In this document: positions 1,197 to 63,888 of the stretch, piece after piece
Layout of the letters: each line of letters starts with the position of its first letter
Position numbering within the stretch: position 1 is the stretch's first letter
Origin: Anaerovibrio lipolyticus LB2005
Lineage (GTDB): Bacteria > Bacillota > Negativicutes > Selenomonadales > Selenomonadaceae
NCBI RefSeq assembly: GCF_000621545.1
Contig: NZ_JHYA01000006.1
Location: forward strand, 1-64,000
Direction of reading: 5' to 3'
DNA length: 64,000 bases
Program-made: the position numbers and the translations under genes
Notes under the pieces: model-generated
Databases searched by the model: none
What the model was told of the DNA's origin: nothing
Seen by the model: the letters and a program-made list of their open reading frames with translations, nothing else

Positions 1197-1997
1197 ATGA
1201 AACTGTTTTTGGGCAAAAAGGTCGGCGTGAGCAAAGAGGAGAAGGCACTTTCTTATTACAAATTCTTTGAGCGGGATATGGCGAACATCCCGGCGGAGAA
1301 AATCGCTCTTCTGGATGCGCCGCAGGAAAAGTCCGCTGTGCCTTTTGAAGAGAAAAACCTCTATTTGGCAGGGAAAGACAAGGACTATGCCCAAGTCGGT
1401 TACGGCACGGCGGCAAACGGCACTGGCTTTGTCTGCAACGAAACCTATATGCCAGGTGTTACCCCGGAAATGCTGGACTGGTGGTTCCCGTGGCACAGCG
1501 TAGGCTCGGATTTGCGCTATAAGATTTGGGATCCAGAAGACCATTATTTTGCTCGCGCCGATAAAGCGGATTATGTTTGTGACCCCAATGTGCCGGTCAA
1601 CGAAAAGACATGGGGAGTCAATCATTATATTTTGGAGGATGTGGGTGGTGGCCCCGGCTTTCTGAAGATTTGCTTCAAAAGCCCTGCTGATTTTGGCTTT
1701 GACACGTCCCTGATTGGCAAGGAAAACTGCGCATCCTTTGTTTGCGGCATCGGTGATGGCTCCTGCGCGGCGGCGATGGTGCATAAATGGTATCCTTATC
1801 AGGACGGCGTGATGCTGTGTTCCCGTTTTTGGATCGGCTACGGCGTGGTGGACGGGGAGATTCGCTGCACTCTGCCTGAGGGTGCGAAAGTTCCCGTGGA
1901 AGTGTCCAAGGGCTTATTTGCCCATAATATCAAAGAGTTTACCAATCTGGCTGCAATCCTGCCGGAAGTTTACGCCGAGAACAAGGATAATTTCTGA
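1197..1997 (+). CDS. DAPG/phloretin hydrolase family protein (PhlG-like)
   Basis: A 266-aa protein with the signature of the PhlG (2,4-diacetylphloroglucinol hydrolase) and phloretin hydrolase family. These are zinc enzymes that cleave a C-C bond next to a carbonyl on acylphloroglucinols. The diagnostic block is at residues ~87-112, with MLDWWFPWHS, RYKIWDP and EDHYFA, and later His/Glu ligand candidates lie in NHYILED and MVHKWYP. A GGGAGG site precedes the ATG. Base composition is clearly more GC-rich than the flanks, suggesting acquisition. A broken LysR gene follows immediately and may once have regulated it. The exact substrate cannot be read from sequence. Confidence 0.75.
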   Translation: MKLFLGKKVGVSKEEKALSYYKFFERDMANIPAEKIALLDAPQEKSAVPFEEKNLYLAGKDKDYAQVGYGTAANGTGFVCNETYMPGVTPEMLDWWFPWHSVGSDLRYKIWDPEDHYFARADKADYVCDPNVPVNEKTWGVNHYILEDVGGGPGFLKICFKSPADFGFDTSLIGKENCASFVCGIGDGSCAAAMVHKWYPYQDGVMLCSRFWIGYGVVDGEIRCTLPEGAKVPVEVSKGLFAHNIKEFTNLAAILPEVYAENKDNF

Positions 1998-1999
1998 AC

Positions 2000-2465
2000 A
2001 TGAACATTCAGCAGCTAAGATATTTCGCAAACGGCGGTTTCCAATCAAATCAAAGCCTTAGAGGAAAAACTGGGCGTGCAGCTTTTTCAGCGGGATAATC
2101 GAAAGGTTCTTCTCACCCCAGCAGGAAAAGTCTTTGTCAAGGAAGCCAAAAGCATCATCACGAGAATCGAGGAAGCCGTCCAACACACCAAGGATGCCGC
2201 CGAGGGATTCGCCGGAGAAATCCATGTGGGTTACCAATGGGGCTTTGAACGTACTGTCTTTCCGAGAGTTTTGCAGGATTTTCAGTACGAATACCCAAAC
2301 ATTGAAATCCTTATCGAACGGGATGAAGTGGCAGCCTTATATGATGGGGTGATGGAAGGAAAGTATGATATTATTTTCAATCTGCCCCTGCCCGGCAAAA
2401 AGAAGTCCGGACTGAAAGAAATGGTGCTTGCCCGTTATCCGCTGTATGGATCATGGAATTTATAG
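2000..2465 (+). pseudogene. LysR-family regulator, internally deleted and truncated
   Basis: Starts MNIQQLRYFA, the usual LysR N-terminus. It then loses about 20 codons of the helix-turn-helix and changes frame near 2031. The restored frame reads TAVSNQIKALEEKLGVQLF and continues through the linker helix into the start of the effector-binding domain (AGEIHVGYQWGFERTVFPR), ending at 2465. A full family member is ~290-300 residues and only about half remains. Two separate lesions mean it is inactive as a DNA-binding regulator. Confidence 0.8.
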
Positions 2466-2481
2466 ATGAAGGAGAACGAAC

Positions 2482-2895
2482 ATGGTAAAGGAAATAGTGA
2501 GGGATTTGATTTTCCTCGGTCAGAAAGCTGAAACAGCAACAAAAGAAGATATACCTATCGCGAGGGATTTGCTGGATACCCTTGCTGCACACAGAGAGCG
2601 ATGTGTGGGTATGGCAGCTAATATGATTGGTGAGCGAAAAGCCATTATTGCTGTAGCTGAAGGGAATGCGCTGACCGCAATGTTAAATCCAGTGATTGTA
2701 AAGAAATCTCCTAGAACCTACAAGGCGCTGGAAGGGTGTCTTTCTATTTCCGGAGAGCGTGAAGCAGAGCGACATGAATGGATTGAGGTAAAATACCGGG
2801 ATATTAATTGGAATAAGGAAAAGCGTAAAATTATGGGCATGGAGGCTGAAATCGTGCAGCATGAAATGGACCATTTGGAGGGTAAATTGATATGA
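2482..2895 (+). CDS. def: Peptide deformylase family protein
   Basis: A 137-aa metal enzyme that removes the N-formyl group from nascent proteins. All three family motifs are visible. Motif 1 is GMAANMIG (residues ~43-50), with Asn where classic enzymes have Gln. Motif 2 is EGCLS, with the metal-ligand Cys. Motif 3 is QHEMDHLEG, with HExxH ligands. A GGAG site precedes the ATG. The protein is slightly short and has the shape of accessory deformylases common in Clostridia. Its stop overlaps the next start (ATGA). It is probably a second, accessory def copy. Confidence 0.8.
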   Translation: MVKEIVRDLIFLGQKAETATKEDIPIARDLLDTLAAHRERCVGMAANMIGERKAIIAVAEGNALTAMLNPVIVKKSPRTYKALEGCLSISGEREAERHEWIEVKYRDINWNKEKRKIMGMEAEIVQHEMDHLEGKLI

Positions 2896-3164
2896 CGAGC
2901 ATTAAGACCGTGTTGGGAGATATTACGGCAAAACACTATGCTGTAGCAATAGTTAATGCTGCCAATGAAAGTCTGCTTGGGGGCGGAGGTGTGGATACCG
3001 AAACGGATGAACAGCTTGTTGTGTATCAGGCTATGTATGGTGATGGTGGTATTTATGCTAGACCACTTGATATGACAGTTATTTACAACAGCCTCTTTTA
3101 TTGTGCAGGAAATTCAAAGTTTTTGCAGAAAGGTAAAAAAAGGATAACACTTGTCGGAAGTTAG
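2892..3164 (+). pseudogene. Deletion chimera: macro-domain start joined to DUF1653 tail
   Basis: Residues 1-35 are the N-terminal half of a macro (ADP-ribose-binding) domain, ending in VNAANESLLGGGGVD. The chain then jumps, without the expected AIHRAAG continuation, to TETDEQLVVYQAMYGDGG and ARPLDM, the C-terminal half of a DUF1653 domain. A last ~30 residues match neither. The reading frame survives, but neither domain is complete. The start overlaps the deformylase stop. It is most likely non-functional. Confidence 0.65.
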
Positions 3165-3273
3165 CTCGGCTGCCTTTGTAGATGACTTTTTTGTATTCAT
3201 ATTATATAATTAACTCAAATATCATGGACGTTTTGTAACCTGTAGAAGAAAAAACAGATGAGGAGGACGAGGT

Positions 3274-4020
3274 ATGAGAAGAATAGTAACCGTATTTTTA
3301 TCATTGGTGATGCTGCTTAGCTGTACTATGGCGTTTGCGGCAACAACTGAGAAGGGGCCTTTACCTCAATTTATGAATGCTGTGGAAGGCTCATGGTGTG
3401 ACCAAAATGGTCATCGTATGGTGGTCTTTGGTGATTACATGATGAATGGCATCCGTGTATCAGAGGCCAATAACGTGGCCGGTGATCAGTTGAACGGCAG
3501 TGCTACGATTACCATTATCGGTAGAACTGGGGTTGATTTTGTCAATGTGTATTGGAACACTGTAGCTGGAAAGAGAACCATAAACATGGGTAGCAGTATG
3601 CCGATGGTGCCATTTGCCGCTGCACCTCAATACCCTGAGACTATTGGTGGACTTCATCTTGACATGACCGAGCCTGAGCTGTCAAATAAATATGGTCCTG
3701 GCACTCTGCTGACTCCTTCTGAAACCATGGCACTGTGTGGCATTAATGCAGAGAGCTGGTACTATAAGGATATTGGTCTTTTGGCTACCTTTGACCAGCA
3801 GACCTTTACTGTTGACCGTCTTATTTTGGTAAAGGGTGCAACTACTGCCTTTGATATCAGTGCACTGAATGCTGATTCTCCATTGTATAAGTATGCTGCA
3901 ATTTATGGCTGGTCTTATACTCCGGCACCTGGTGATGTTGTAGATATGGGACATGGTCAATCCATGAACTTCAAGTATTATCCTCAGGCTGTAATGATTC
4001 AGCTTAGCAGTCTGAATTGA
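3274..4020 (+). CDS. Exported protein of unknown function
   Basis: A 248-aa protein with a clear signal peptide: RR, a hydrophobic core VFLSLVMLLSCTMAF, and cleavage near AFA-A. It lacks a proper lipobox despite the Cys at residue ~18. The mature part is rich in Gly, Met, Tyr and Pro, has only two more Cys, and has no motif I recognise. It is preceded by a strong AGGAGG site and followed by a terminator, so it is a single-gene transcript. Confidence 0.7.
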   Translation: MRRIVTVFLSLVMLLSCTMAFAATTEKGPLPQFMNAVEGSWCDQNGHRMVVFGDYMMNGIRVSEANNVAGDQLNGSATITIIGRTGVDFVNVYWNTVAGKRTINMGSSMPMVPFAAAPQYPETIGGLHLDMTEPELSNKYGPGTLLTPSETMALCGINAESWYYKDIGLLATFDQQTFTVDRLILVKGATTAFDISALNADSPLYKYAAIYGWSYTPAPGDVVDMGHGQSMNFKYYPQAVMIQLSSLN

Positions 4021-48655: not shown

Positions 48656-48682
48656 TTTAGAAGAATGTCTTGAATAATATAG

Positions 48683-48708
48683 CTGCTCTCAAACGAGGGC
48701 AGTTTTTT
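48683..48708 (+). terminator. Terminator (copy 1)
   Basis: CTGCTCTC-AAAC-GAGGGCAG then TTTTTT. The gene it once ended is missing on this side, and the identical copy at 53653 ends the UPF0178 gene. Confidence 0.8.
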
Positions 48709-48769
48709 ATTTTGGCCGCTTACAAGGAGCCCAAACCACGACATAATGTTGGTGAGGAGGTCATGCTAT

Positions 48770-48979
48770 ATGAGAAAAGCTATTGAACAGGCCAAGGCAA
48801 CATACCTGGCAGGAATGAGAGTCCGTTTGGTCAAGATGGATGATATCCAGGCACCACCGATAGGCATCGAGGGAACGGTAATAGGTGTGGATGACATCGG
48901 TTCGGTTATGGTGGCATGGGATAACGGCTCGGGATTAAATGTGGTTCTGGGTGAGGATGAAATCGAGGTGGTGAAGTAA
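48770..48979 (+). CDS. DUF4314 protein (phage-associated), copy 1
   Basis: A 69-aa SH3-like small protein: AGMRVRLVKMDDIQAPPIG, GTVIGVDDIGS, VAWDNGSGLNVV. These occur beside terminase genes in Firmicute prophages; function unknown. Start at 48770 behind GAGGAGG. Near-identical to 53738-53947. Its stop overlaps the next start. Confidence 0.75.
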   Translation: MRKAIEQAKATYLAGMRVRLVKMDDIQAPPIGIEGTVIGVDDIGSVMVAWDNGSGLNVVLGEDEIEVVK

Positions 48980-49239
48980 TGAGACTATGTCCAATTTGCG
49001 GCAAGGAGTACGACAGCTATCCGGCATTGTCAAGGAAAGACAACCGTACTGAGATCTGTCCAGATTGCGGTAATAGGGAAGCAGTGGAGGTGTATACCCT
49101 TTATTCTAAGGAGGGTGACATTACCTTCATAATGGAGGATAAGAAGAATATGACTTCAGTGGTGGGCTTCTATTATGGTGATCCTGATGAGGAGGCGACA
49201 AAGATATTCAGAGGTAAGCTGACAGCGGAGTTTGAGTAA
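48979..49239 (+). CDS. Small zinc-ribbon phage protein, copy 1
   Basis: An 86-aa protein with CPICGKEYDSYPALSR and ICPDCGNREAVE, a Cys4 zinc ribbon, then an acidic tail. Closely similar to 54159-54437. Overlaps the DUF4314 stop (TAATG). Function unknown. Confidence 0.7.
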   Translation: MRLCPICGKEYDSYPALSRKDNRTEICPDCGNREAVEVYTLYSKEGDITFIMEDKKNMTSVVGFYYGDPDEEATKIFRGKLTAEFE

Positions 49240-50613: not shown

Positions 50614-52230
50614 ATGGAAAAGGAAATCATTGATTTTATAGTAAAAGAGGTTCGTCCTCGTTATGATGAAAATATTGAAGAAGCGGCGAAGGTATTTTTG
50701 GATACTCTTAAATATGACATAGATGAGGACGATTTAAATGGTCTTGGAACGCGACTGATACCAACTCTAGATGCCCTTGCCACAGAAAGTCAACCTCTAC
50801 ATACGCTTTTTCCTGCTATTAATAAAGTTGAACCATATGCAAGAAAAGTGCTATGTATCGTTAATCGAGTTAAATATAATTCTATTAAAGAAGAGCAAGG
50901 AGGTTTTTCTCCAATTTTAAGTGCTTTGGGAATAAGAGCAAAACAAATCCAGAGAGCATATGATTTGAGAAATTTAGAAGCCCATGCTTGTAAAGATTGG
51001 ACCAGAGGACAATCTTATGAGAAAATATTGGATATTTTGATTGCTTGTTTAAAAATAACAAACGAGCAAATAGGCCAATTGAAGAAAGTGATTTATCAAT
51101 CCGGAGGATCAAAGGAAAACACTTTTGAGTATATTAATGCCGTTATCCGTCAGTACAAGGATAAGATTAACAAAATTGTGCAGCTGGACTCGGAGGAAGA
51201 TGTTTCTCTGTTAGATATAAATGCAGTCGAAAATGATACTGGAGAAAAAGTCGCTCGAAAAGGATCTGTACGAGAATTAATAGCTTCTATCGAGGAAAAA
51301 CGCATGATTCTTTGGGGAGATGCAGGAGCGGGAAAAACAACTACTTTAGAATATATTGTTTATCTTGATGCTAAAGATTATAAAGCTGGAAAAAGTAGCA
51401 AAATTCCTGTGTTAATATATCTTGGAATGGCGACAGATGAACATTTGACTTTGGAAGACTATATTGCAGATAAATTGAATATTAAATTAGATGAATTGAA
51501 GGCTTTATTGAAAAATGGAAGGATAAATCTTTATTTTGACGGATATAATGAAATCCCCTACACTGAAAGGAATATGTTAAAAACAAAGCGTCGGCGTGAG
51601 TTAACAAATATTCTTGAGAATTATCCTGATACTTTTATTATTCTTACAAATCGCCCACAGGATGGTAAGGAATTCTCGAGAATCCCTGTATTTAATCTTC
51701 TTGAAATGGACAACGGGAAAGTTGAGGAATTCATACAGAAGAATACAGCATCTGAAGGTGAAAAAAATAAGGTAAGGGAAGCGATTGACCAGGATGAAAA
51801 TTTGTTCCAGCTCATAAAAAAACCGTTAATTCTTAAAAGTCTATTGTTTATTGTTAAAACAACGGGAGCTGTTCCAAGACGTGAAGGAAGAATTATTGGT
51901 GATTTTTTGAAAGCACTGTTTGTCCGCGAACAGCAGGAAAAATATGATGAGTATCTTGATGAGGAAAGGATACATTTGCTTTTAAGACGTATTGGCTATG
52001 AAACCTTTGAAAATAATAAAACAAATTCTGGTATTTCTAAAGAAATAATCATGGATATTATGAATCGTTGTCAGAAAGATTATAATTTCTCCTATGATAA
52101 TTTATATGCTTTAAACCTCATTGTTCATCTCGGAATTATGGACAAGAGGGATAACCAATATGTTTTTGCGCATCAATCTTATCAGGATTACTATGCAGCC
52201 CAGGAAGAAAAAGCAGTTTTAGATATGTAA
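50614..52230 (+). CDS. Predicted HEPN-NACHT STAND NTPase (candidate anti-phage effector)
   Basis: A 538-aa protein. Residues ~1-165 are all-helical with RNLEAH at 119-124, an Rx4H motif with Asn after Arg, as in Swt1-like HEPN ribonuclease domains. The NACHT NTPase starts at ~200: Walker A GDAGAGKTT at ~235, Walker B INLYFDGYNEIP at ~305, sensor ILTNRPQD at ~343 and the winged-helix end FAHQSYQDYYAAQEE. It stops there. The C-terminal repeat sensor usual in STAND proteins is missing, so sensing may be done by the partner upstream. Base composition is AT-rich like a recent arrival. Confidence 0.7.
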   Translation: MEKEIIDFIVKEVRPRYDENIEEAAKVFLDTLKYDIDEDDLNGLGTRLIPTLDALATESQPLHTLFPAINKVEPYARKVLCIVNRVKYNSIKEEQGGFSPILSALGIRAKQIQRAYDLRNLEAHACKDWTRGQSYEKILDILIACLKITNEQIGQLKKVIYQSGGSKENTFEYINAVIRQYKDKINKIVQLDSEEDVSLLDINAVENDTGEKVARKGSVRELIASIEEKRMILWGDAGAGKTTTLEYIVYLDAKDYKAGKSSKIPVLIYLGMATDEHLTLEDYIADKLNIKLDELKALLKNGRINLYFDGYNEIPYTERNMLKTKRRRELTNILENYPDTFIILTNRPQDGKEFSRIPVFNLLEMDNGKVEEFIQKNTASEGEKNKVREAIDQDENLFQLIKKPLILKSLLFIVKTTGAVPRREGRIIGDFLKALFVREQQEKYDEYLDEERIHLLLRRIGYETFENNKTNSGISKEIIMDIMNRCQKDYNFSYDNLYALNLIVHLGIMDKRDNQYVFAHQSYQDYYAAQEEKAVLDM

Positions 52231-53038: not shown

Positions 53039-53197
53039 ATATAAGCCCCCCTCACATATCTTACGGACCAATTATACCATTTATTTCGGTTATTTTATAA
53101 TACATTTTAGTTATGATGATGGTATGGATGTACAGTTTTTGGTTATTAAGTATTGTGTTATAATACAAGCCAAAGATAAATGAAAGAGACGGATAAT

Positions 53198-53644
53198 ATG
53201 AGAATATTTGTTGATGCAGATGGATGCCCGGTAGTTAGGCAGACTGAGGAAGTGGCCGTGAAATATGGTGTTCCAGTGACACTTCTGTGTGATACTAATC
53301 ATATACTTAAATCAGACTACAGTGAGGTAAAGATAATTGGAGCAGGGGCGGATGCGGTGGATTTTGCCCTTGTTAATCTGTGCCACGAAGGTGATGTGGT
53401 GGTTACTCAGGACTACGGTGTTGCAGCTATGACTCTGGGTAAGAAGGCGTATGCTATCCATCAGAATGGTTGGCTGTATACCAATGAAAATATAGATAGG
53501 CTACTTATGGAACGTCACATTACCAAGAAGGCGCGCAGGGCATCTGGGAAACATCACCTAAGGGGACCAAGGAAACGCTTGGAAGATGATGACATAAAGT
53601 TCAAGGAGTCATTGGCAAGGTTGTTGGCAAGTATAACAGATTAA
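53198..53644 (+). CDS. yaiI: UPF0178 (YaiI/YqxD) PIN-like domain protein
   Basis: A 148-aa protein. MRIFVDADGCPVVRQ, TNHILKSDYSEVKIIGAGADAVDFALVN, VTQDYGVAAMTL and RGPRKRLEDDD are the standard UPF0178/DUF188 blocks, a PIN-like fold with conserved acidic residues. Molecular role not established. It is normally chromosomal, so finding it inside the element is unusual. The duplicated terminator follows directly. Confidence 0.85.
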   Translation: MRIFVDADGCPVVRQTEEVAVKYGVPVTLLCDTNHILKSDYSEVKIIGAGADAVDFALVNLCHEGDVVVTQDYGVAAMTLGKKAYAIHQNGWLYTNENIDRLLMERHITKKARRASGKHHLRGPRKRLEDDDIKFKESLARLLASITD

Positions 53645-53737: not shown

Positions 53738-53947
53738 ATGAGAGATGAGATTGCAAAGGCCAAGGCTACATACCTGGCAGGAATGAGGGTACGATTGGTA
53801 AAGATGGATGATATTCAGGCACCGCCGATAGGCACAGAGGGAACGGTAAGAGGCGTGGATGACATCGGTTCGGTTATGGTGGCATGGGATAACGGCTCGG
53901 GATTAAATGTGGTTCTGGGTGAGGATGAGATCGAGGTGGTTAAATAA
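53738..53947 (+). CDS. DUF4314 protein, copy 2
   Basis: 69 aa, differing from the 48770 copy mainly in the first residues (MRDEIAKAKATYL) and at IGTEGTVRG. GAGGAGG precedes the ATG. Its stop overlaps the next start (TAATG). Confidence 0.75.
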   Translation: MRDEIAKAKATYLAGMRVRLVKMDDIQAPPIGTEGTVRGVDDIGSVMVAWDNGSGLNVVLGEDEIEVVK

Positions 53948-54162
53948 TGAAAAGCGACAAGGAAGTAAGCCGTATTGAAAGAACCTATCAACCTGGAATG
54001 AGGGTAAAGCTTCTTAAGAAGTACGGACCACAGTCACCACCGGTTGGAACCATGGGGACCGTCAGGACAGTGGATGTTTTTGGATATATCCAGATTTCAT
54101 GGGATAACATATCGGGAGTAATTGTTGTTTTGGATGAGGATGATTTTGAGGTGGTGGAATGA
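53947..54162 (+). CDS. DUF4314 protein, diverged third copy
   Basis: 71 aa: PGMRVKLLKKYGPQSPPVG, GTMGTVRTVDVFGYIQISWDN. The same SH3-like pattern as the other DUF4314 copies, but only about half identical. Overlaps both neighbours by a few bases, so the three are translationally coupled. Confidence 0.7.
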   Translation: MKSDKEVSRIERTYQPGMRVKLLKKYGPQSPPVGTMGTVRTVDVFGYIQISWDNISGVIVVLDEDDFEVVE

Positions 54163-54437
54163 TGAGAGTATGTCCAATTTGCGGCAAGGAGTATGATGGT
54201 TATCCGGCACTGTCAAGGAAAGACAACTGTACTGAGATCTGTCCAGATTGCGGTACTAGGGAAGCAGTGGAGGTTTATACGCTTTATTCTCAGGAAGGTG
54301 ACATCACCTTCATAATGGAGGATAAGAAGAATACAACTTCAGTGGTTGGCTTCTATTATGGTGAGCCTAATAAGGAGAACACGAGAGAATTCAGAGGAAA
54401 ACTAACAGCGGAGTTTGATGAAGGGGAGGGTGCATAA
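54159..54437 (+). CDS. Small zinc-ribbon phage protein, copy 2
   Basis: 92 aa (start at 54159 or the adjacent ATG at 54162). CPICGKEYDGYPALSR and CPDCGTREAVEVYTLYS match the 48979 copy, with a longer acidic tail. Overlaps the upstream stop and the downstream start. Confidence 0.7.
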   Translation: MMRVCPICGKEYDGYPALSRKDNCTEICPDCGTREAVEVYTLYSQEGDITFIMEDKKNTTSVVGFYYGEPNKENTREFRGKLTAEFDEGEGA

Positions 54438-54670
54438 TGATAGAAGAACAGGTTTGCATTGATATTGTGGCTAAGTGTTCTTGTTGCGGTAATGTAGAAA
54501 TATATACCTTAAACGAGGAAGAGTCACTTATGTACGTCAAATACCTAGATTACGGCAGAAAAATGGGATACTTACAAGATCTATTTCCTAATGTGCCTGC
54601 ATGGATAAGAAGTGGTGGAATAGATCAGTACAGTAACGGATTTTGCATATGTCCACATTGTTATGAATGA
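54437..54670 (+). CDS. Cys-rich small protein (77 aa)
   Basis: Starts on the last base of the upstream stop. CSCCGNVEIYTL and CICPHCYE give two Cys clusters at the ends, a likely zinc-binding pair, with an aromatic middle. Last gene of the small-protein cluster. No family known. Confidence 0.6.
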   Translation: MIEEQVCIDIVAKCSCCGNVEIYTLNEEESLMYVKYLDYGRKMGYLQDLFPNVPAWIRSGGIDQYSNGFCICPHCYE

Positions 54671-54675
54671 GTAAA

Positions 54676-54711
54676 GGCCAGTTTCTATAATTAAGGAGCT
54701 GGCCATTTTTT
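54676..54711 (+). terminator. Terminator of the small-gene cluster
   Basis: GGCCAG (54676-54681) pairs with CTGGCC (54699-54704), then ATTTTTTATTT. Confidence 0.75.
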
Positions 54712-54726
54712 ATTTGTAATTATAAT

Positions 54727-54807
54727 TTACTCACCAAAATAATCGATTTTCCCAAATCCGCCCCAAACTGCACCTTTTGAGGCCATCCCTATTTTTTCGC
54801 CTTTCAT
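54727..54807 (-). pseudogene. Leftward 26-codon remnant
   Basis: ATG AAA GGC ... reads MKGEKIGMASKGAVWGGFGK then IDYFGE-stop. It has a protein-like sequence but no ribosome binding site, and overlaps the broken 5' end of the terminase. Probably debris from a rearrangement. Confidence 0.25.
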
Positions 54808-55430
54808 TTTATGGAGGTCTTGACCTATCCAGTACCACGGATATAACGGCCTTTGTGCTGGTGTTTCCGCCTTTGGACGAAGATGATAAATACTATATTC
54901 TTCCTTATTTCTGGATTCCTGAGGACAACGTTGATGTAAGAGTAAGGCGCGACCATGTGCCTTATGATGTGTGGGAGAAGCAGGGAAAATTGCTGACAAC
55001 TGAGGGCAATGTGGTCCATTACGGCTACATTGAGCAGTTCATTGATAAGCTGAATGAAAGGTTTAATATCCGGGAAATCGCATACGACCGCTGGGGAGCT
55101 GTGCAGATGGTACAGAACCTTGAAGGGATGGGCTTTACAGTGGTCCCATTTGGTCAGGGTTTTAAGGATATGAACCCACCAACCAAGGAGCTTATGAAGC
55201 TGACGTTGGAGGAGAAAATAGCTCATGGAGGGCATCCGGTACTTAGATGGATGATGGATAACATCTTCATAAAGACAGACCCGGCCGGTAACATAAAGCC
55301 GGACAAAGAAAAATCCACAGAGAAGATTGACGGTGTTGTGGCCACAATAATGGCCCTTGACCGAGCAATCCGCTGTGGATTGGATAATGGTGAAAGTGTG
55401 TATGATGGGCGTGGGCTGCTGTTGATTTAA
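54777..55430 (+). pseudogene. terL: Terminase large subunit, C-terminal nuclease part only
   Basis: About 205 residues homologous to the RNase H-like nuclease half of phage TerL: YGGLDLSSTTDITAFVLVFP (first Asp), IREIAYDRWGAVQMVQNLEG, and PDKEKSTEKIDGVVATIMALDRA near the end (last Asp). The whole N-terminal ATPase (~300 residues) is missing, and no proper start or ribosome binding site exists. The packaging motor is therefore dead. Confidence 0.8.
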
Positions 55431-55623
55431 GACACAACAGGTGCTACAGCCTTTTTGCCAATAACTCAAGCAGATGGATAGTCTGTTTGGGGTGTTTCTG
55501 CCAGATTTCCATGCTTCTATAGTTTTGCTTAAGCATAAAAAGGGACAATGTTTTTTTCAGTTTTGGATAGGTTTTCCATCTCATTTTTTTTATGGTGACA
55601 TATTTTGAAATGATTTTTATTAG

Positions 55624-57483
55624 TTACTCATGGCTTAAAATCTTATGAGTATAATAAAGCACCAAAGTGCTATATATAAATAGAATAATTACAAATATCC
55701 ACTGTACTTCTTCATCAAAAATACTAATGATTTGAGATTCTGCAACTATGTATACCAATGGTATACTACTAGCTACAAAGAGCAGCCGGCCAGGGTGTAA
55801 GATGTAATTTCTCTTTATGGTTTTTTTTAGCTCCTTAAATAAAGGGGGAAATAAAACACCCAAACCCTCATTTTTAATATATTTAATTCTTGAAATTGCA
55901 TCTCTTATGTATTCAGGAGTTTTTAAAAGTTTATTTTGTATTTTTATAATAAAATTTAAGATACCTTCAGGTATGATTAATCCTAGTAGGCCAGTTATAT
56001 TAAAGGCTAATATTACTGCAAAAATGCATATCAAGGTTATCCATTGCCCAGGAACTTCTTTTTTATTAATATTAAAATTTTCTAAAAGTTGCGGTAGTTT
56101 ATCTTTTGCATCAAAGAACTGGTCACAAAAAGATAATGAATCAGCAAAAACTGAACATATCCCGAAAAATGCTAATATACCTACTACACGCTCAACCTTT
56201 TTCAGCCTTTTAGTATTGTTTTCGGCCATTACCTGCTGACTCATCTCTGCTATAGCATCAACACCCTTTTCAAGGTTCCCAGAAATTTCACTTATATTAC
56301 ATTCTTTTTTCGCATAGAGATAAATATCATTGATAGATTTTTCATAACTGACAAACGAAGTTGTGTTTAACAAATAAAATAAATTAATTTTTAATCTAAG
56401 TTCCTTTATTTTTTTATATAGATCATCTGATAAATTACCTGAGTATGCCTGTGGGTCTTTGGGCAATTTTTCATATGCATATAACTGACTTAAACTCTTT
56501 AAAAAGTAATATTGTTGTAATACATCCGTATACACTCTCTGAATCATTTTATATTTAATAAATCCAGAAAAATAATTACTAAATCGCTCAGAATGAAGCG
56601 TAGGCATCTTTAGTTCAAAAAATGGATTACATGAAAAAAATATCATGCAATTAATATCCGTATAGCAAAATAAATCGTTTGTAATCATTTCTGGTTCTTT
56701 GCAACCATTATATTCTAGTACAAAATCTGGCAATACATTTTTGACATATTCCATATTTATCCCTGGTTTATATAGAGCAAAATAATTCCTACATGCATAA
56801 TAATCAAAAAAATGATACGACGATAAACTTGAGGATGATATTAGTTCAATTAAATTATCTAATAGTTTTTCAATAAAGTCTGTAAAGGAAAAAGAACTCA
56901 TATTTTGTAAATCATATGAGTTTGAATAGATATTAGCAATCAATTCATTTATATTATCGTTCTCTGAAAAATCGAAAGATTTTTTTATTTCGCTTGGCAT
57001 AATAAAATATGGCTTATAAACACCAATCCACAAGAAATGGCGATATTTTTTACAAAACTCAGATATATTTTTTGCAGAATCTCCAAATTCAGCTTTACTT
57101 CCTATATCATAAGATAAAAAACCTATCCCATTTCCATACAAAGTTATAGTGATATCATGAATGGATATCACTTGTTTATCACTAAACAAGAATATTGGGA
57201 TATCGCTAAGCACTCCATCTTTATTGGTAAGTAGTAAAGAGAATTCAAAAGCATCCCTTTCACTCGCACTTAAGTAATCATGCTCTTTATTCAACAGATT
57301 AGGGCGTTCGATCAAACTATCAAACCTATAGTATATAGATTCCTCGTTAACGTCAAAATAAAATATTTTGTTTAATATTTTGGTACAATTCCAACTATCA
57401 TATAAGTCTTTTCGATCTACAGTATGATAAAAAGGAACAATGTGTGTATGTTGTCTGATGTACAACTTTTCGTTATTACTCAT
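55624..57483 (-). CDS. Large four-TM protein of unknown function (element cargo)
   Basis: A 619-aa protein (ATG at 57483 behind GGGAGTG). Residues ~1-430 are predicted cytoplasmic, aromatic and Ser/Asn rich. A short coiled coil (AIAEMSQQVMAENNTKRLKK) precedes four hydrophobic helices at ~440-460, 490-515, 570-590 and 597-617. The soluble head plus C-terminal TM bundle resembles CorA-like or abortive-infection membrane effectors in layout only. It is strongly AT-rich and transcribed opposite to the phage genes between which it lies, which is typical of an inserted cargo gene. Family not recognised. Confidence 0.6.
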   Translation of the reverse strand: MSNNEKLYIRQHTHIVPFYHTVDRKDLYDSWNCTKILNKIFYFDVNEESIYYRFDSLIERPNLLNKEHDYLSASERDAFEFSLLLTNKDGVLSDIPIFLFSDKQVISIHDITITLYGNGIGFLSYDIGSKAEFGDSAKNISEFCKKYRHFLWIGVYKPYFIMPSEIKKSFDFSENDNINELIANIYSNSYDLQNMSSFSFTDFIEKLLDNLIELISSSSLSSYHFFDYYACRNYFALYKPGINMEYVKNVLPDFVLEYNGCKEPEMITNDLFCYTDINCMIFFSCNPFFELKMPTLHSERFSNYFSGFIKYKMIQRVYTDVLQQYYFLKSLSQLYAYEKLPKDPQAYSGNLSDDLYKKIKELRLKINLFYLLNTTSFVSYEKSINDIYLYAKKECNISEISGNLEKGVDAIAEMSQQVMAENNTKRLKKVERVVGILAFFGICSVFADSLSFCDQFFDAKDKLPQLLENFNINKKEVPGQWITLICIFAVILAFNITGLLGLIIPEGILNFIIKIQNKLLKTPEYIRDAISRIKYIKNEGLGVLFPPLFKELKKTIKRNYILHPGRLLFVASSIPLVYIVAESQIISIFDEEVQWIFVIILFIYSTLVLYYTHKILSHE

Positions 57484-57616
57484 TAAAATCACTCCCGTTA
57501 ATGGTATTGAGATGCTTATTTAAAATAATATTTTTAGATACAGAATAAATCATTATCCATAACGTTTTTAAATATTCTCGTTTTCTATCAAATTTCCTTT
57601 AAAGGAGGCATCATTT

Positions 57617-59590
57617 ATGAATCTATTTTCTAAACTGTTTCGTTCAAGAGACAAGCCAAAGAATTACCTTTCAAGCCACTGGCCGTTTGTTTGGGGAGCA
57701 ACCCCAGCGGGCAAGAATGTAACTGAACGGACAGCGATGCAGGTAACAGCTGTTTATGCCTGTGTGAGAATACTGGCAGAGGCAATAGCAAGCCTTCCGC
57801 TTCATGTGTATCAGTACAGACCTGATGGCAGCAAGGAAAAGCTATATAGTCACTGCCTTTACAGGCTCCTTCACGATGAGCCTAATCCTGAAATGACCAG
57901 CTTTGTGTTCAGGGAGACAATGATGAGCCACCTTCTGCTTTGGGGCAACGCTTATGCCCAGATTATAAGGAATGGCAGGGGAGAGGTAACTGCACTGTAT
58001 CCACTTCTTCCAAACAAGATGGATGTAAGCCGTGATTCATCGGGGCAGCTTGTCTATACCTATACACGCAATGCCGATGAGTCTGGGAGTAATCAGAAGT
58101 TTGAGCAGGTGGTTCTTCCAAGGGAGGATGTCCTTCATATCCCCGGCCTTGGCTTTGATGGCCTTATCGGCTACAGTCCAATTACCATGGCCAAGAATGC
58201 AATAGGCATAGCAATAGCTACCGAGGAATATGGGGCAGCCTTCTTTGCCAACGGTGCAACCCCGGGAGGTATCCTGGAGCATCCGGGAGTAGTAAAGGAC
58301 CCGGATAAGCTTCGAAAAAGCTGGCAGGCACAGTTTACGGGCAGGAAAGCCCACAGCGTGGCCGTGCTTGAAGAAGGAATGACATACAAGCAGATGGGCA
58401 TACCGCCCAACGAGGCACAGTTTTTAGAGACAAGAAAATTTCAAATCAATGAGATAGCTCGAATTTTCAGAGTTCCACCGCACATGGTTGGGGACCTTGA
58501 AAAGTCGAGCTTTTCTAATATTGAGCAGCAGTCACTGGATTTTGTTATGTACACGCTTAATCCGTGGATTGCTCGATGGGAACAGGCTCTGCAGCAGGCA
58601 CTATTACTTCCGGCTGAAAAGAGCCATTTGTTTTTCAGGTTCAATGTGGATGGTCTCCTGCGTGGTGACTACCAGAGCCGGATGAACGGGTATGTGCAGT
58701 ATGTTATGGAGCAGTACATGGAGGCAAGGAGAAGCTGCACCGACCCTATCATCCTCATTGAGCAGAGACTTGATTTCTCATGCTATGTGCCTGATGGGTT
58801 CGGTACAGGTGACTGTGTTATTGTTTCGGATGACAGACTTCATATTATTGATTTTAAGTATGGCTTAGGGGTTCTGGTAGAAGCTGAGAACAATCCCCAG
58901 ATGAAGCTTTATGCATTGGGTGCACTTGCCATCTATGACAGCCTTTATGATATTAAGGAAGTTTCCATGACAATTTTCCAGCCACGTCGGGAGAATGTAA
59001 GCACTTGGACTATTAGCACTAAGGCTCTTAAGGAATGGGCTGAGAACGAGCTTGTTCCAAAGGCTGAACTTGCCTTCAAGGGTGAAGGAGAATATCAGCC
59101 GGGTGAATGGTGTACCTTCTGCAGGGCTGCAGTAAAATGCCGTGCCAGGGCGGAGGAAAAACTCAATCTTGCCAGGAAGGATTTCAGGCTGCCGCCGCTT
59201 CTTACTGATGCCGAGATTGAGGAGGTCTTGGAAAAGCTCCCTGATCTTACCAGATGGGCCAATGCAATCACTGCCTATGCAACGGATGCAGCAGTTAATC
59301 ATGGCAAGGTTTGGAACGGGTTCAAGGTAGTGGAAGGACGCTCAGTTCGAAAGTACATTGATGAGGAAAAGGTGGCAGATGCTGCCAGGAAAAACGGATA
59401 CTCTGATATCTACCGTCAGTCCCTTATTCCGATGACCGAAATGCAGAAGCTGATGGGCAAAAAGAACTTTGAGGAAATCCTCGGTGAACTTATATACAAG
59501 CCACCGGGAAAGCCGACTCTTGTACCTGTTTCTGACAAGAGGCCGGCAATGAATATTTCAGATGCAAAACATGATTTTGACGAAATTTAG
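57617..59590 (+). CDS. In-frame fusion: HK97-type portal protein + DUF2800 nuclease
   Basis: A 657-aa chimera (AAAGGAGG site). Residues ~1-355 are a phage portal protein (TAMQVTAVYACVRILAEAIA, LWGNAYAQI, FSNIEQQSLDFVMYTLNPW, RGDYQSRMNGY). From ~356 the chain becomes the C-terminal two thirds of DUF2800, a PD-(D/E)XK phage exonuclease: EQRLDFSCYVPDGFGTGD, IIDFKYGLG, ENNPQMKLYALGAL and the CxxC-type EWCTFCRAAVKC. The portal tail and the DUF2800 head are both missing. The ORF is open and may be expressed, but portal function is unlikely. Confidence 0.85.
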   Translation: MNLFSKLFRSRDKPKNYLSSHWPFVWGATPAGKNVTERTAMQVTAVYACVRILAEAIASLPLHVYQYRPDGSKEKLYSHCLYRLLHDEPNPEMTSFVFRETMMSHLLLWGNAYAQIIRNGRGEVTALYPLLPNKMDVSRDSSGQLVYTYTRNADESGSNQKFEQVVLPREDVLHIPGLGFDGLIGYSPITMAKNAIGIAIATEEYGAAFFANGATPGGILEHPGVVKDPDKLRKSWQAQFTGRKAHSVAVLEEGMTYKQMGIPPNEAQFLETRKFQINEIARIFRVPPHMVGDLEKSSFSNIEQQSLDFVMYTLNPWIARWEQALQQALLLPAEKSHLFFRFNVDGLLRGDYQSRMNGYVQYVMEQYMEARRSCTDPIILIEQRLDFSCYVPDGFGTGDCVIVSDDRLHIIDFKYGLGVLVEAENNPQMKLYALGALAIYDSLYDIKEVSMTIFQPRRENVSTWTISTKALKEWAENELVPKAELAFKGEGEYQPGEWCTFCRAAVKCRARAEEKLNLARKDFRLPPLLTDAEIEEVLEKLPDLTRWANAITAYATDAAVNHGKVWNGFKVVEGRSVRKYIDEEKVADAARKNGYSDIYRQSLIPMTEMQKLMGKKNFEEILGELIYKPPGKPTLVPVSDKRPAMNISDAKHDFDEI

Positions 59591-59603
59591 GGGGAAATTA
59601 ATT

Positions 59604-60155
59604 ATGACAAATTCTAACACCAAAACAAAAGTTATCACCGGTTTGAACACAAGACTCTCTTACTTTCACGGTTGGGAGCCGGTATCAATCAATGGCGGAG
59701 CGGCAAAGTATTCCGTGTCTGTTCTTATTCCAAAGGATGATAAGACTACCATCGATGCAATCAACGCAGCAGTGGATGCAGCAATTGATGAAGGGATTGC
59801 GAAATTCGGGGGCAAGAAGCCTAACAAAAAAGCTCTTAAGCTTCCACTCCGTGACGGTGATCTGGAGCGTGATGATGAGGCATACAAGGGACATTATTTC
59901 TTGAATGCAAACAGCAATACCCCGCCTGATATTGTTGACCGTAGAAATACTCGTATTAGTGATCACAGTGAGGTTTATTCAGGCTGTTATGCAAGGGTAT
60001 CGCTTAACTTCTATGCCTTCAATTCCAACGGGAACAAGGGGATTGCATGCGGTCTTGGGAACATCCAGAAGGTCCGTGATGGTGAGCCTCTTGGCGGAAG
60101 ATCGTCTGCAGCGGATGACTTCACCACAATAGATGATGATGATTTCCTCGAGTAA
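59604..60155 (+). CDS. DUF2815 phage replication protein (ssDNA-binding-like)
   Basis: A 183-aa protein started at 59604 behind AGGGGG. TRLSYFHGWEPVSINGGAAKYSVSVLIPK (part), KLPLRDGDLERDDEAYKGHYF and an acidic tail TIDDDDFLE, typical of SSB-like proteins. DUF2815 normally lies between DUF2800 and the phage polymerase, exactly as here. It probably coats single-stranded DNA in phage replication. Confidence 0.8.
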   Translation: MTNSNTKTKVITGLNTRLSYFHGWEPVSINGGAAKYSVSVLIPKDDKTTIDAINAAVDAAIDEGIAKFGGKKPNKKALKLPLRDGDLERDDEAYKGHYFLNANSNTPPDIVDRRNTRISDHSEVYSGCYARVSLNFYAFNSNGNKGIACGLGNIQKVRDGEPLGGRSSAADDFTTIDDDDFLE

Positions 60156-60215
60156 TAAAGTGTTTATGGGGCGGTATGGAGGCATTCCATGCCGTCTTTT
60201 CTTAGGAGGCATCAA

Positions 60216-62156
60216 ATGAAGAATCTTGAGATTGATCTGGAAACCTATTCATCGGTGAAGCTTAAAAAGAGCGGCGTTTACCCGTATGCTGAGTCACCCG
60301 ATTTTGAAATTCTTCTGTTCGGATACAGTGTGGACGGAGGGGAAGTCAAGGTGATTGACCTTGCCCTGGGTGAAAAGATCCCTGATGAAATAATTGCAGC
60401 ACTGACCGATGAGAAAGTCACAAAGTGGGCCTTCAACGCACAGTTCGAGCGTATTTGTTTATCAAGATATCTGGGCCTTAAAACGGGTGAATATCTTTCT
60501 CCAAAACAGTGGAAATGCAGCATGGTCTGGTCAGCCTATATGGGGCTTCCGCTTTCCCTGGAAGGAGTAGGTATAATACTTGGACTTGAAAAGCAGAAGC
60601 TGGCTGCCGGAAAGGATTTGATAAAGTATTTCTGTGAGCCTTGCACGCCCACAAAGTCAAATGGTGGAAGAACAAGAAACCTTCCGAAGCATGATATGGA
60701 AAAGTGGAGGCTTTTCAAGGAGTACAATGCAAGGGATGTTGAGGCGGAAATGCAGATACAGTCAAGACTGGCAAAGTTTCCCGTGCCGGATAATGTATGG
60801 GACGAGTACCATCTTGACCAGGAAATAAACGACAGGGGAATACTTGTTGATATGGAATTTGCGAGAATTGCCATCGCAATTGATGGGAAATCTCATAGTA
60901 TGCTGATTGAAATGCTGAAGAGCAAGACAGGACTCGATAATCCAAACTCCGTATTACAGATGAAGTCGTGGCTTGCGGATAACGGTGTTTTAACAGATAC
61001 ACTTGGCAAAAAGGCTGTTGCTGAACTGATAAAGGAGACTGATAGTGATGTGGCCGATGTACTTTTAATGAGGCAAAAGATTGCCAGATCATCGGTAAAG
61101 AAGTATCAGGCAATGCAGAATGCGGCCTGCAGCGATCACAGGGTACGAGGGATGTTCATGTTTTATGGGGCAAACAGGACAGGACGTTTCAGTTCAAGGC
61201 TTGTGCAGCTGCAGAATCTTCCCAAGAACTATATATCTGATCTGGATGAGGCACGGGGACTTGTAAGAAGCGGCAATTACGAAGCACTGGATATTCTTTA
61301 TGAGGATATTCCGGATACCCTTTCACAGCTGATACGCACTGCTTTTATTCCTGGTAACGGTAAGGTGTTTATTGTTGCTGACTTTTCTGCAATCGAAGCA
61401 AGGGTAATTGCATGGTATGCGGGAGAACAGTGGCGAATTGAAGCTTTTGAGGACGGAGAGGACATCTATTGTGCCTCGGCCTCACAGATGTTTGGGATAC
61501 CGGTAGAAAAGCACGGGGTGAATGGGCATCTCAGACAGAAAGGTAAAATCGCAGAACTTGCCCTGGGCTATGGAGGATCAGTTGGTGCATTGAAGGAAAT
61601 GGGAGCTATTGATATGGGATTAAACGAGGATGAGCTTCCTGACCTGGTAAATGCGTGGAGAAGTGCCAATCCGCATATAGTAAGATTTTGGTGGGATGTT
61701 GACCGCGCAGTAAAGAAAGCTATCAAGGAAAAAACGGTTACAAATGTGAAAGGTATAAGCTTCACATGCAGAAGCGGAATGCTGTTTATAAAACTTCCTT
61801 CGGGGAGAGTTCTCTCCTATGTCAAACCAAAAATAGGAATAAACAGATTTGGCGGGGAGTCAGTAAACTTTGAAGGCATTGGTACAGCAAAGAAATGGGA
61901 AAGACTGGAAAGCTACGGTCCAAAGTTTGTGGAGAATATTGTTCAGGCCACAAGCAGGGATTTACTGATGCACGCAATGAAGACTCTCAGGAATTTAAGA
62001 ATAGTGGCCCATGTCCATGATGAAGTAATTATAGAGGCTGATACCGGCATAAGCCTTGATGCAGTTTGCAAGAAAATGGCTGAGGTTCCGTCCTGGGCAA
62101 ATGGATTGAACCTTAGGGCTGATGGATATATTTGCAAATTTTATAAAAAAGATTAA
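60216..62156 (+). CDS. Phage-type family A DNA polymerase
   Basis: A 646-aa protein started at 60216 behind TTAGGAGG. The N-terminal 3'-5' exonuclease begins EIDLETYSSV (catalytic D/E), with KWAFNAQFERICL next. The polymerase domain has GANRTGRFSSRLVQLQNLPK (part), motif A FIVADFSAIEARVIAWYAG (part), a motif-B region with KGKIAELALGYGG and motif C VAHVHDEVIIE. The length and lack of a 5' nuclease are usual for phage PolA. Appears intact. Confidence 0.9.
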   Translation: MKNLEIDLETYSSVKLKKSGVYPYAESPDFEILLFGYSVDGGEVKVIDLALGEKIPDEIIAALTDEKVTKWAFNAQFERICLSRYLGLKTGEYLSPKQWKCSMVWSAYMGLPLSLEGVGIILGLEKQKLAAGKDLIKYFCEPCTPTKSNGGRTRNLPKHDMEKWRLFKEYNARDVEAEMQIQSRLAKFPVPDNVWDEYHLDQEINDRGILVDMEFARIAIAIDGKSHSMLIEMLKSKTGLDNPNSVLQMKSWLADNGVLTDTLGKKAVAELIKETDSDVADVLLMRQKIARSSVKKYQAMQNAACSDHRVRGMFMFYGANRTGRFSSRLVQLQNLPKNYISDLDEARGLVRSGNYEALDILYEDIPDTLSQLIRTAFIPGNGKVFIVADFSAIEARVIAWYAGEQWRIEAFEDGEDIYCASASQMFGIPVEKHGVNGHLRQKGKIAELALGYGGSVGALKEMGAIDMGLNEDELPDLVNAWRSANPHIVRFWWDVDRAVKKAIKEKTVTNVKGISFTCRSGMLFIKLPSGRVLSYVKPKIGINRFGGESVNFEGIGTAKKWERLESYGPKFVENIVQATSRDLLMHAMKTLRNLRIVAHVHDEVIIEADTGISLDAVCKKMAEVPSWANGLNLRADGYICKFYKKD

Positions 62157-62173
62157 TAGAAACGTCCTTTTTT

Positions 62174-62211
62174 ACCTCCTTTCGTGGCTTAACGATAGGA
62201 GGTGTTTTTTT
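62174..62211 (+). promoter_or_regulatory. Hairpin that hides the excisionase ribosome binding site
   Basis: ACCTCCT (62174-62180) is perfectly complementary to AGGAGGT (62197-62203), which is the xis Shine-Dalgarno, and T7 follows before the ATG. The same hairpin can act as a terminator behind the polymerase. It could therefore both limit read-through and sequester the xis start. Confidence 0.5.
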
Positions 62212-62421
62212 ATGGCAGATAAAAATGCGTATATCCCTATATGGGAAAAGTATTCTCTCAGTATGGAGGAAGCAGCAGCATATTATGGAATCGGCGTTAA
62301 AAAGCTTTACGGCTTAATCCGTAGTAACCCAAATGCTGATTTTATTCTTGAAATTGGGGCGCATTGCAGAATTAAAAGGGTAATGTTTGAAAAATATCTT
62401 GATGAAACTACAGCCATATAA
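62212..62421 (+). CDS. xis: Excisionase (Tn916 Xis type)
   Basis: A 69-aa winged-helix protein: YIPIWEKYSLSMEEAAAYYGIG followed by KKLYGLI and RIKRVMFEKYL. The pattern matches Tn916 Xis (IPIWERYTLTIEEASKYF...). It bends DNA to favour excision with Int. Start at 62212 behind AGGAGGTG. Confidence 0.85.
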   Translation: MADKNAYIPIWEKYSLSMEEAAAYYGIGVKKLYGLIRSNPNADFILEIGAHCRIKRVMFEKYLDETTAI

Positions 62422-62489: not shown

Positions 62490-62511
62490 CTTCATGAAAG
62501 GAGAGATTATT

Positions 62512-63714
62512 GTGAGCGAGAAAAGAAGAGACAAAAAAGGTCGTATTTTACATAATGGCGAGATACAGATGCCTGACGGGCGCTATAGATTTAAATATCT
62601 TGGCCCAAATGGGAAAGAAATAGCAATTTATAGTTGGAGACTCGTCAGTACCGATATTACTCCTGCAGGAAAAAAAGATTCAGAACCTTTAAGAGAATTA
62701 GAAAAACAGATTCAGAAAGACATCTTTGATAATATTGATACGCGTGCAAGTAATATTACTGTACTGCAACTTGTAAAAAAGTATATTGCAACCAAGAAGG
62801 GGGTCAGACGAAACACTCAAAATGGTTATCATACAGTTCTTACTCTGTTAGAAAATGATTCTTTTGGTAGAAAAATTATTGCAAATGTAAAAAAATCTGA
62901 TGCTAAAACATGGTTGATAAAGCTCCAGGAAGACGACGGAAGGAGTTATAATAGTGTTCGTGTTGTTGGTGGGGTACTTAGACCAGCGTTTCAGCTTGCA
63001 GTTGATGATGATTTCATTCGAAAGAATCCGTTTTCATTTTCTTTAAAAGATGTAATTGTTAATGAAAGTTTGAAACGAGAGGCTCTTTCGGAGGATGATG
63101 AGAAGAAATTTCTCGAATTTATCAAAGTAGATGGAGTTTACAAGAAATATTATGAGGTTATCTACATTCTCTTTAAGACCGGAATGCGTATTTCTGAATT
63201 TTGTGGTCTTACAATGGATGATATTAATTTTGATGATCATTCAATCAATATAGATCATCAGTTATTGAAGACCTCAAAGGTTGGGTACTATATTGAAAAA
63301 ACAAAAACCAAAAATGGTACTAGGGTAATACCGATGACAGACGATGTTGAGGAATGTTTCAGGACACTTATTGCAAAAAGAAAAACTCCACTTAAAGAAC
63401 CTATAGTAGATGGATATTCTGGTTTTTTATTTTTCAACAGAGAAAGAAGTATAACACATGCATATCTGTGGAATCAGTATTTCAAGAGAATTGTTGAGAA
63501 ATATAATAGACTTAACAAGGATTCTCAGATACCAAAGGTTACTCCTCATATTTGCAGGCATACTTATTGTTCAAATATGGCAAAAAGTGGAATAAATCCG
63601 AAGGCACTTCAGTATCTTATGGGCCATTCAAGCATAAGTGTAACATTAAATATTTATACCCATTTGAATTATAACGACATAAAGGAAGAGGTACACAGAA
63701 TAAATAATGCGTGA
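62512..63714 (+). CDS. int: Tyrosine integrase (Tn916 Int type)
   Basis: A 400-aa protein started at the GTG at 62512 (AAGGAGAG site), giving MSEKRRDKKGRIL as in Tn916 Int. AP2-like arm-binding N-terminus (QMPDGRYRFKYLGPNG), SAM-like core-binding domain, and catalytic domain with Arg in FKTGMRISEFCG, His-x-x-Arg in TPHICRHTYCS, His in LMGHSSI and the nucleophile Tyr in LNIYTHLNY. Apparently intact. It should integrate and excise the element. Confidence 0.9.
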   Translation: MSEKRRDKKGRILHNGEIQMPDGRYRFKYLGPNGKEIAIYSWRLVSTDITPAGKKDSEPLRELEKQIQKDIFDNIDTRASNITVLQLVKKYIATKKGVRRNTQNGYHTVLTLLENDSFGRKIIANVKKSDAKTWLIKLQEDDGRSYNSVRVVGGVLRPAFQLAVDDDFIRKNPFSFSLKDVIVNESLKREALSEDDEKKFLEFIKVDGVYKKYYEVIYILFKTGMRISEFCGLTMDDINFDDHSINIDHQLLKTSKVGYYIEKTKTKNGTRVIPMTDDVEECFRTLIAKRKTPLKEPIVDGYSGFLFFNRERSITHAYLWNQYFKRIVEKYNRLNKDSQIPKVTPHICRHTYCSNMAKSGINPKALQYLMGHSSISVTLNIYTHLNYNDIKEEVHRINNA

Positions 63715-63761: not shown

Positions 63762-63784
63762 AATTTTATACCGAATTTTATACC
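63762..63784 (+). repeat. Right arm-type repeats AATTTTATACC x2
   Basis: AATTTTATACC at 63762-63772 and 63774-63784, matching the pair at the left end (48636-48655). Confidence 0.5.
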
Positions 63785-63888
63785 TTTTGGTGACAAAAAT
63801 ATGCCAAATTATGCCAGAATATGGCAATAATCATATATGCTTCAATCCTTGGTAAATAAGGGATTATGGGAGAAATAGGGGGATTGGC

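Follow-up and report, generated by a model that had tools for sequence, protein, structure and literature searches.

The portal-DUF2800 fusion in the window (the whole stretch of 64,000 nucleotides analysed here, which is the start of the 192,729-base contig C6 in a 2.68 Mb draft assembly of 31 contigs) is real: a single open frame of 657 amino acids at 57617-59590 encodes residues 1-359 of an HK97-type portal protein followed, in frame, by the last 298 amino acids of a DUF2800 protein. The fused ORF is probably the scar of a deletion in a defective prophage with DUF2800-DUF2815-polA and terL-portal genes, and it looks like ordinary prophage decay and not like a new functional protein. From left to right, the region holds a DUF188/YaiI gene, small genes with PHROG matches, a terL fragment, a reverse-strand orphan gene, the fusion, DUF2815, pol, an excisionase, a Tn916-like integrase and the symporter flank. 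Its features are as follows (window positions, strand):

53180..53644, +, DUF188/YaiI gene, the chromosomal left flank common with sister species G001 (PF02639, E 3e-38; 91% DNA match to G001:C21)
54806..55430, +, terL fragment reduced to its nuclease end (Pfam TerL_nuclease profile 96-282; ATPase part without a match)
55430..55541, -, probable 3′ end of an HTH antitoxin-like gene (DNA homology to the C1 prophage and G001 continues to 55541)
55624..57492, -, 622-aa orphan gene, no family match
57617-59590, +, fused portal-DUF2800 ORF, one open frame
57617..58694, +, portal 5′ part, residues 1-359 (Pfam and NCBIfam portal; DNA homology stops at 58694)
58686..58694, +, junction microhomology, 4-9 nt, TATG to ACGGGTATG (24 relatives compared)
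58691..59590, +, DUF2800 3′ part, N-terminal part absent (Pfam DUF2800 profile 74-368 of 368)
59562..60155, +, DUF2815 / Gp2.5-like single-strand annealing or ssDNA-binding protein (PF10991, E 4e-75; phrog_112)
60189..62156, +, full-length phage DNA polymerase of family A (PF00476; aligns with relatives along its length)
62157..62214, +, post-pol leader, common to phages with a recombinase after pol
62212..62421, +, Tn916-like excisionase (PF09035, E 4e-24)
62494..63714, +, Tn916-like tyrosine integrase (PF00589, PF02920)
63765..63828, no strand, probable attR region (homology to the sodium:alanine symporter flank begins at 63801)

The ORF has the coordinates, frame and length given in the first-pass annotation, and both of its families are borne out by Pfam. 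The Phage_portal match spans residues 45-368 (E 1e-122) and the DUF2800 match residues 350-643 (E 5e-132; 441 bits, cut-off 21), the latter covering only profile positions 74-368 of 368, and the portal core scores above cut-off with both PF04860 (409.7 bits, cut-off 39.1) and TIGR01537 (294 bits, cut-off 112.05). At the change-over the protein reads M356-N-G-Y359-V360 with the frame running through Y359-V360, in agreement with the earlier reading of a switch at about residue 356 around a shared Tyr-Val. At the DNA level, portal homology stops at 58694 in all portal rows among the 70 matches listed, and DUF2800 rows start at 58679 (gapped) or later and, without gaps, fit best from 58686-58691 on. 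Aligning the halves to relatives, the check for microhomology that had been suggested, found 4-9 nt and placed the junction at 58686-58694: the bases common to both sides of the join are TATG in several DUF2800 relatives and fewer in others, and the longest overlap among the 24 relatives compared is ACGGGTATG, in L159. No unusual hairpin was found at the break (z -0.24, -0.52 and -0.31).

On its sequence, the remnant at 53-64 kb is a damaged prophage, because terL lacks its front: the homology of most relatives starts only at 54805-54810, and only the nuclease domain is matched. The reverse-strand piece beside it is probably the leftover of a RelE/HTH pair found here in G001 and in the C1 prophage of the same genome, where the pair lies in the terL-portal gap and matches RelE (below cut-off) and HTH_3 in Pfam. 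The 622-aa orphan has no match in Pfam, PHROG, PADLOC or NCBIfam and no relative in the viral scan or in 397 other genomes of the phylum, and is probably accessory cargo in the terL-portal gap. In G004:C19 a stretch like the attR region adjoins a fragment of an integrase gene. We found no attL to match it in the window, and no exact direct repeat longer than 12 nt between the flanks tested. To the left of the remnant lies a gene for a NACHT-domain NTPase (50614-52230; Pfam E 3e-10), possibly a defence gene. The small genes phrog_3782, phrog_2431 and phrog_2945, at 53738-54670 and 48673-49235 and in G000:C14 and C23, recur at several places in the genome.

The first-pass annotation took replication upstream of packaging to be the order of normal phages, which does not hold for one lineage of relatives on the DUF2800 side. 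We searched the records of 27 of 80 viral loci for a portal gene and found one in 13; judged from coordinates, nine of these (G192, G198, G199, G202, G204, G205, G207, G208 and G210) have the portal 12.1-20.1 kb upstream of DUF2800 and on its strand, and four (G212-G215) have it downstream. These viral records are linear contigs of uncertain completeness that may begin and end at arbitrary points. The gene order of G192 is terL, portal, Clp protease, a putative capsid-like ORF, minor tail protein, DUF2800, DUF2815/ssb, pol and int, and this record is itself damaged, with stops in portal and int, a split pol and an odd DUF2800 start. In L119, L132 and L136, Pfam confirms that DUF2800 is preceded by an amidase and pol followed by a resolvase-type recombinase; in L119 and L132 it also confirms a holin. 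A portal upstream of DUF2800 thus occurs in related viral records and is, alone, no sign of rearrangement.

The two halves have their nearest relatives in different places, at 84-91% identity in Selenomonadaceae genomes for the portal and at 78-80% in other viral records for DUF2800, whose identity within the host family is at most 64%. DUF2800s equally close (78%) are present in the canonical phages G627, G629 and G630, and DUF2800 identity was ruled out as a marker of gene order, as relatives at 78% occur in both orders. We used the post-pol leader and the pol-xis-int arrangement as markers instead. Of 56 distinct loci, 24 score 17-34 for the 58-base leader (mean 8 and maximum 14 in 300 shuffles, scored against one sequence), including all seven late-genes-first records with a readable pol end; the canonical-order loci tested score 5-15. 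In G191 and G192 homologous xis-int genes follow pol as they do in the window, with integrases 51-52% identical.

In the reading that we favour, the parent prophage would have begun with the late genes and ended on the right, beside attR, with DUF2800-DUF2815-pol-xis-int, and the parent phage would have been a mosaic of a Selenomonad-type head and the right end of the late-genes-first lineage. One illegitimate deletion, presumably of about 12-20 kb, would then have run from a stretch with TATG in portal codons 357-360 to one in DUF2800, taking out the protease, capsid, tail and lysis genes and keeping the frame by chance. Because the leader-sharing lineage has late genes before DUF2800 and a recombinase after pol, one internal deletion suffices. 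The order terL-portal-DUF2800-DUF2815-pol had been read as a sign of tandem phage copies or of a circular-junction deletion; neither is needed in a late-genes-first lineage that shares the leader and the pol-xis-int end. The fusion most likely arose when illegitimate recombination took place within a damaged prophage, at a short sequence common to both genes. Counting against a single deletion are the mostly canonical order in the host family, the damaged state of G192, a break that coincides with one in Pectinatus, and the lack of decay at conserved sites. We found no intact phage that combines a Selenomonad-type portal (84-91%) with late-genes-first order.

A serious though less probable alternative is that two different prophages were neighbours, a Selenomonad-type one of canonical order on the left and one ending in pol-xis-int on the right, and that a deletion joined the left portal to the right DUF2800. 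The different nearest relatives of the halves are what such a history would leave, although phage mosaicism explains mixed ancestry equally well. DUF2800 is upstream of the portal in most host-family prophages: within 40 kb we counted 20 canonical same-strand pairs (17 genomes), four portal-first pairs (G030, G033, G036 and G043) and five opposite-strand pairs. On the portal side, 20 of 30 records have a DUF2800, 18 of them in canonical order and two (G637 and G644) not classable. Since the DUF2800s of G030, G036 and G043 each have their own portal downstream as well, the upstream portal belongs to a neighbouring prophage. In Pectinatus (G043:C14) a cut portal indeed stands 8.4 kb upstream, on the same strand, of a separate canonical prophage's DUF2800, with reverse-strand recombinase ORFs between them; in G030 and G036, too, a portal precedes the DUF2800 of a neighbouring prophage. 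Against this, two neighbouring prophages would require two integrations and a larger deletion, and the ORFs from 53 to 64 kb hold no second late-gene set.

The Pectinatus remnant deserves description in its own right. The nearest portal relative (91%), from Pectinatus cerevisiiphilus, is cut at the same codon as the window portal; it adjoins another reverse-strand gene and has a different short ending, AIDKCS-stop, similar to an ending in L360 that we take to be the end of a transposase. The locus (L329, 1830-12171 of G043:C14) has this cut portal remnant left of the canonical prophage's DUF2800, and we provisionally label some of its ORFs as insertion-sequence-like and as reverse-strand recombinases. 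With the window's own copy left out, 198 distinct portal sites could be read beyond residue 358; that of Pectinatus alone lacks the usual follow-on, and a general hot spot of breakage is ruled out at one cut site in 198. No third portal ending near residue 360 was found among close portals in 189 family and 398 phylum genomes, which leaves the window and Pectinatus. By an estimate made after the fact, two independent breaks falling within a few bases of each other amount to a coincidence of about 1%. In G033, portals are interrupted near residue 366: the portal in G033:C8 (L378) is broken by inserts of about 100 bp at residues ~188-209 and 366, and that in G033:C10 (L379) by an insert of about 100 bp at residues ~366-371.

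The terL-portal gap often carries accessory genes. In 109 distinct gaps, 44 were shorter than 200 bp, 38 measured 200-1000 bp and 27 were longer, with varied ORFs on either strand. Several genomes keep such genes between stubs of terL and portal: G016, G022, G026, G033 and G035 (L368-L372) retain a terL 3′ stub, a reverse two-gene pair of ~126-140 and 81-86 codons, and portal codons from 1-77 to 1-109; the pair in L371 has no Pfam match. Such genes may therefore persist in the gap after the phage around them has decayed, and the portal stub of the window fits the pattern of gap genes left between terL and portal stubs. Three small reverse ORFs with a GG-type leader, which we take to resemble bacteriocin precursors, lie beside two portal 5′ stubs in L366 (~1394-3380).

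The same chromosomal site carries remnants in sister species. Between YaiI and the symporter, G001 has a terL fragment, a RelE/HTH-like pair and about 43 portal codons that join the symporter flank directly, at the base matching window position 63801. G002 has the same join after further loss of portal codons, with other genes in the gap; read by eye, the join in G001 and G002 also lies at a short shared sequence. The site thus carries two different deletions across three species, with the remnants all in one orientation. At this site G001:C21 also has an island of about 10 kb (L333, 7417-17382), whose genes we presumptively label methylase, helicase, ATPase and restriction-like.

What the join removed bears on what the fused protein could do. 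The C-terminal part of the portal is incomplete, with 18 residues past 359 that are near-invariant in 164 homologs gone (R363 to G404). The nuclease half had been credited with keeping its D-x-K and Cys motifs, and this stands for D130-x-K132, along with D117 and Q146, and for three of four cysteines (Cys217, Cys220 and Cys226); Cys18 is gone, as are His43 and Glu47, which we take to be RecB-type motif I. His43 and Glu47 are present in all 50 full-length DUF2800 homologs and Cys18 in 48; the two homologs without Cys18 also lack Cys220 and Cys226, which points to a single four-cysteine cluster formed by C18 and C217/C220/C226. If made, the fused protein should, by the residues it has lost, work neither as a portal, because the 18 C-terminal residues are gone, nor as a nuclease, because His43, Glu47 and one of the four conserved cysteines are gone. 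An AlphaFold2 model of the fusion has low confidence (mean pLDDT 51.3), and promoter-like sites at 54600-60300 are at chance level (19 found, 17.5 expected).

We consider it very improbable that selection maintains the remnant as a satellite or domesticated locus in which portal core and nuclease remnant would, for example, poison the portal rings of incoming related phages. In its favour, the ORF is intact, none of 130 portal and 112 DUF2800-half near-invariant columns is changed, dN/dS of the portal half against the truncated Pectinatus portal is 0.039, and both portals are cut at the same codon, each beside a reverse-strand gene. However, the terL fragment, although without its ATPase, is as clean (0 of 87 columns; dN/dS 0.034-0.039, and 0.039 against the G001 fragment), so the clean conserved sites of the fusion may reflect youth rather than function. 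The chance level of promoter-like sites and the lack of a conserved copy in the genomes searched also argue against selection. In the same decay test, which left out rows below the identity limits, rows with <90% coverage and rows within 3% of one already kept, ssb had no change, pol had two at 206 near-invariant columns (7 of 47 other sequences have as many) and int had 30, in an uninformative alignment of five rows; for most pairs of the DUF2800 half, ssb and pol, dS was either saturated or could not be defined. More doubtful still is the idea that the codon-359-cut portal is a maintained, moving unit, with the window and Pectinatus sharing one truncated ancestor kept by purifying selection and acting against related phages, for example by spoiling portal rings; such common descent would need selection on the truncated portal.

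The fusion appears to be confined to this genome among those searched. In the phage and plasmid records, 3325 and 517 had a match, none with a place covering 80% of the fused query, and no fused relative was found in the 15 other genomes of the genus or in the other genomes searched, including 189 of the family and 398 of the phylum (a sample drawn from a larger group). The best 80 of 577 genome-contig relatives of the fused query are portal matches; three alignments (L056, L076 and H1) extend past the join, to residue 383 or 428, and L056 and L076 are not among the sites without the usual portal follow-on. A literature search gave no report that we recognised as a portal-DUF2800 fusion, and among solved structures we found none for DUF2800, the portal matching portals such as 8cez_A. 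The same genome was ruled out as the source of the halves, the C1 prophage portal being 84% and its DUF2800 52% identical in protein. An assembly chimera, in which separate intact portal and DUF2800 genes were joined by the assembler, is conceivable in a draft of 31 contigs and is most improbable, as <10 nt are shared at the join, which is internal to a contig of 192,729 bases, and further copies of the halves noticed in the assembly reach no more than ~80% (portal) and ~66% (DUF2800) DNA identity.

Three known systems offer comparison. The Candidatus Heliusviridae are described as having nine shared genes (PMC9226167), of which five are recognisable in the window (DUF2800, DUF2815, pol I, terL and portal). 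The window differs in that three of its five are truncated and its order starts with terL-portal, and a reading of the ORFs near the remnant showed no VRR-NUC, SNF2 helicase, Clp protease or capsid gene, so that the full set of nine is lacking. With the duf2800-gp2.5-polA module (PMC8093625), the window shares the same three genes in the same order, except that its duf2800 has no 5′ part and is fused to the portal.

Defective prophages with deletion-fusion pseudogenes are a known general kind. The remnant resembles them in its truncated genes, the microhomology at its join, the integrase it has kept and the other deletion at the same site in its sister species, and differs in that its join happens to keep the frame, for 657 codons.
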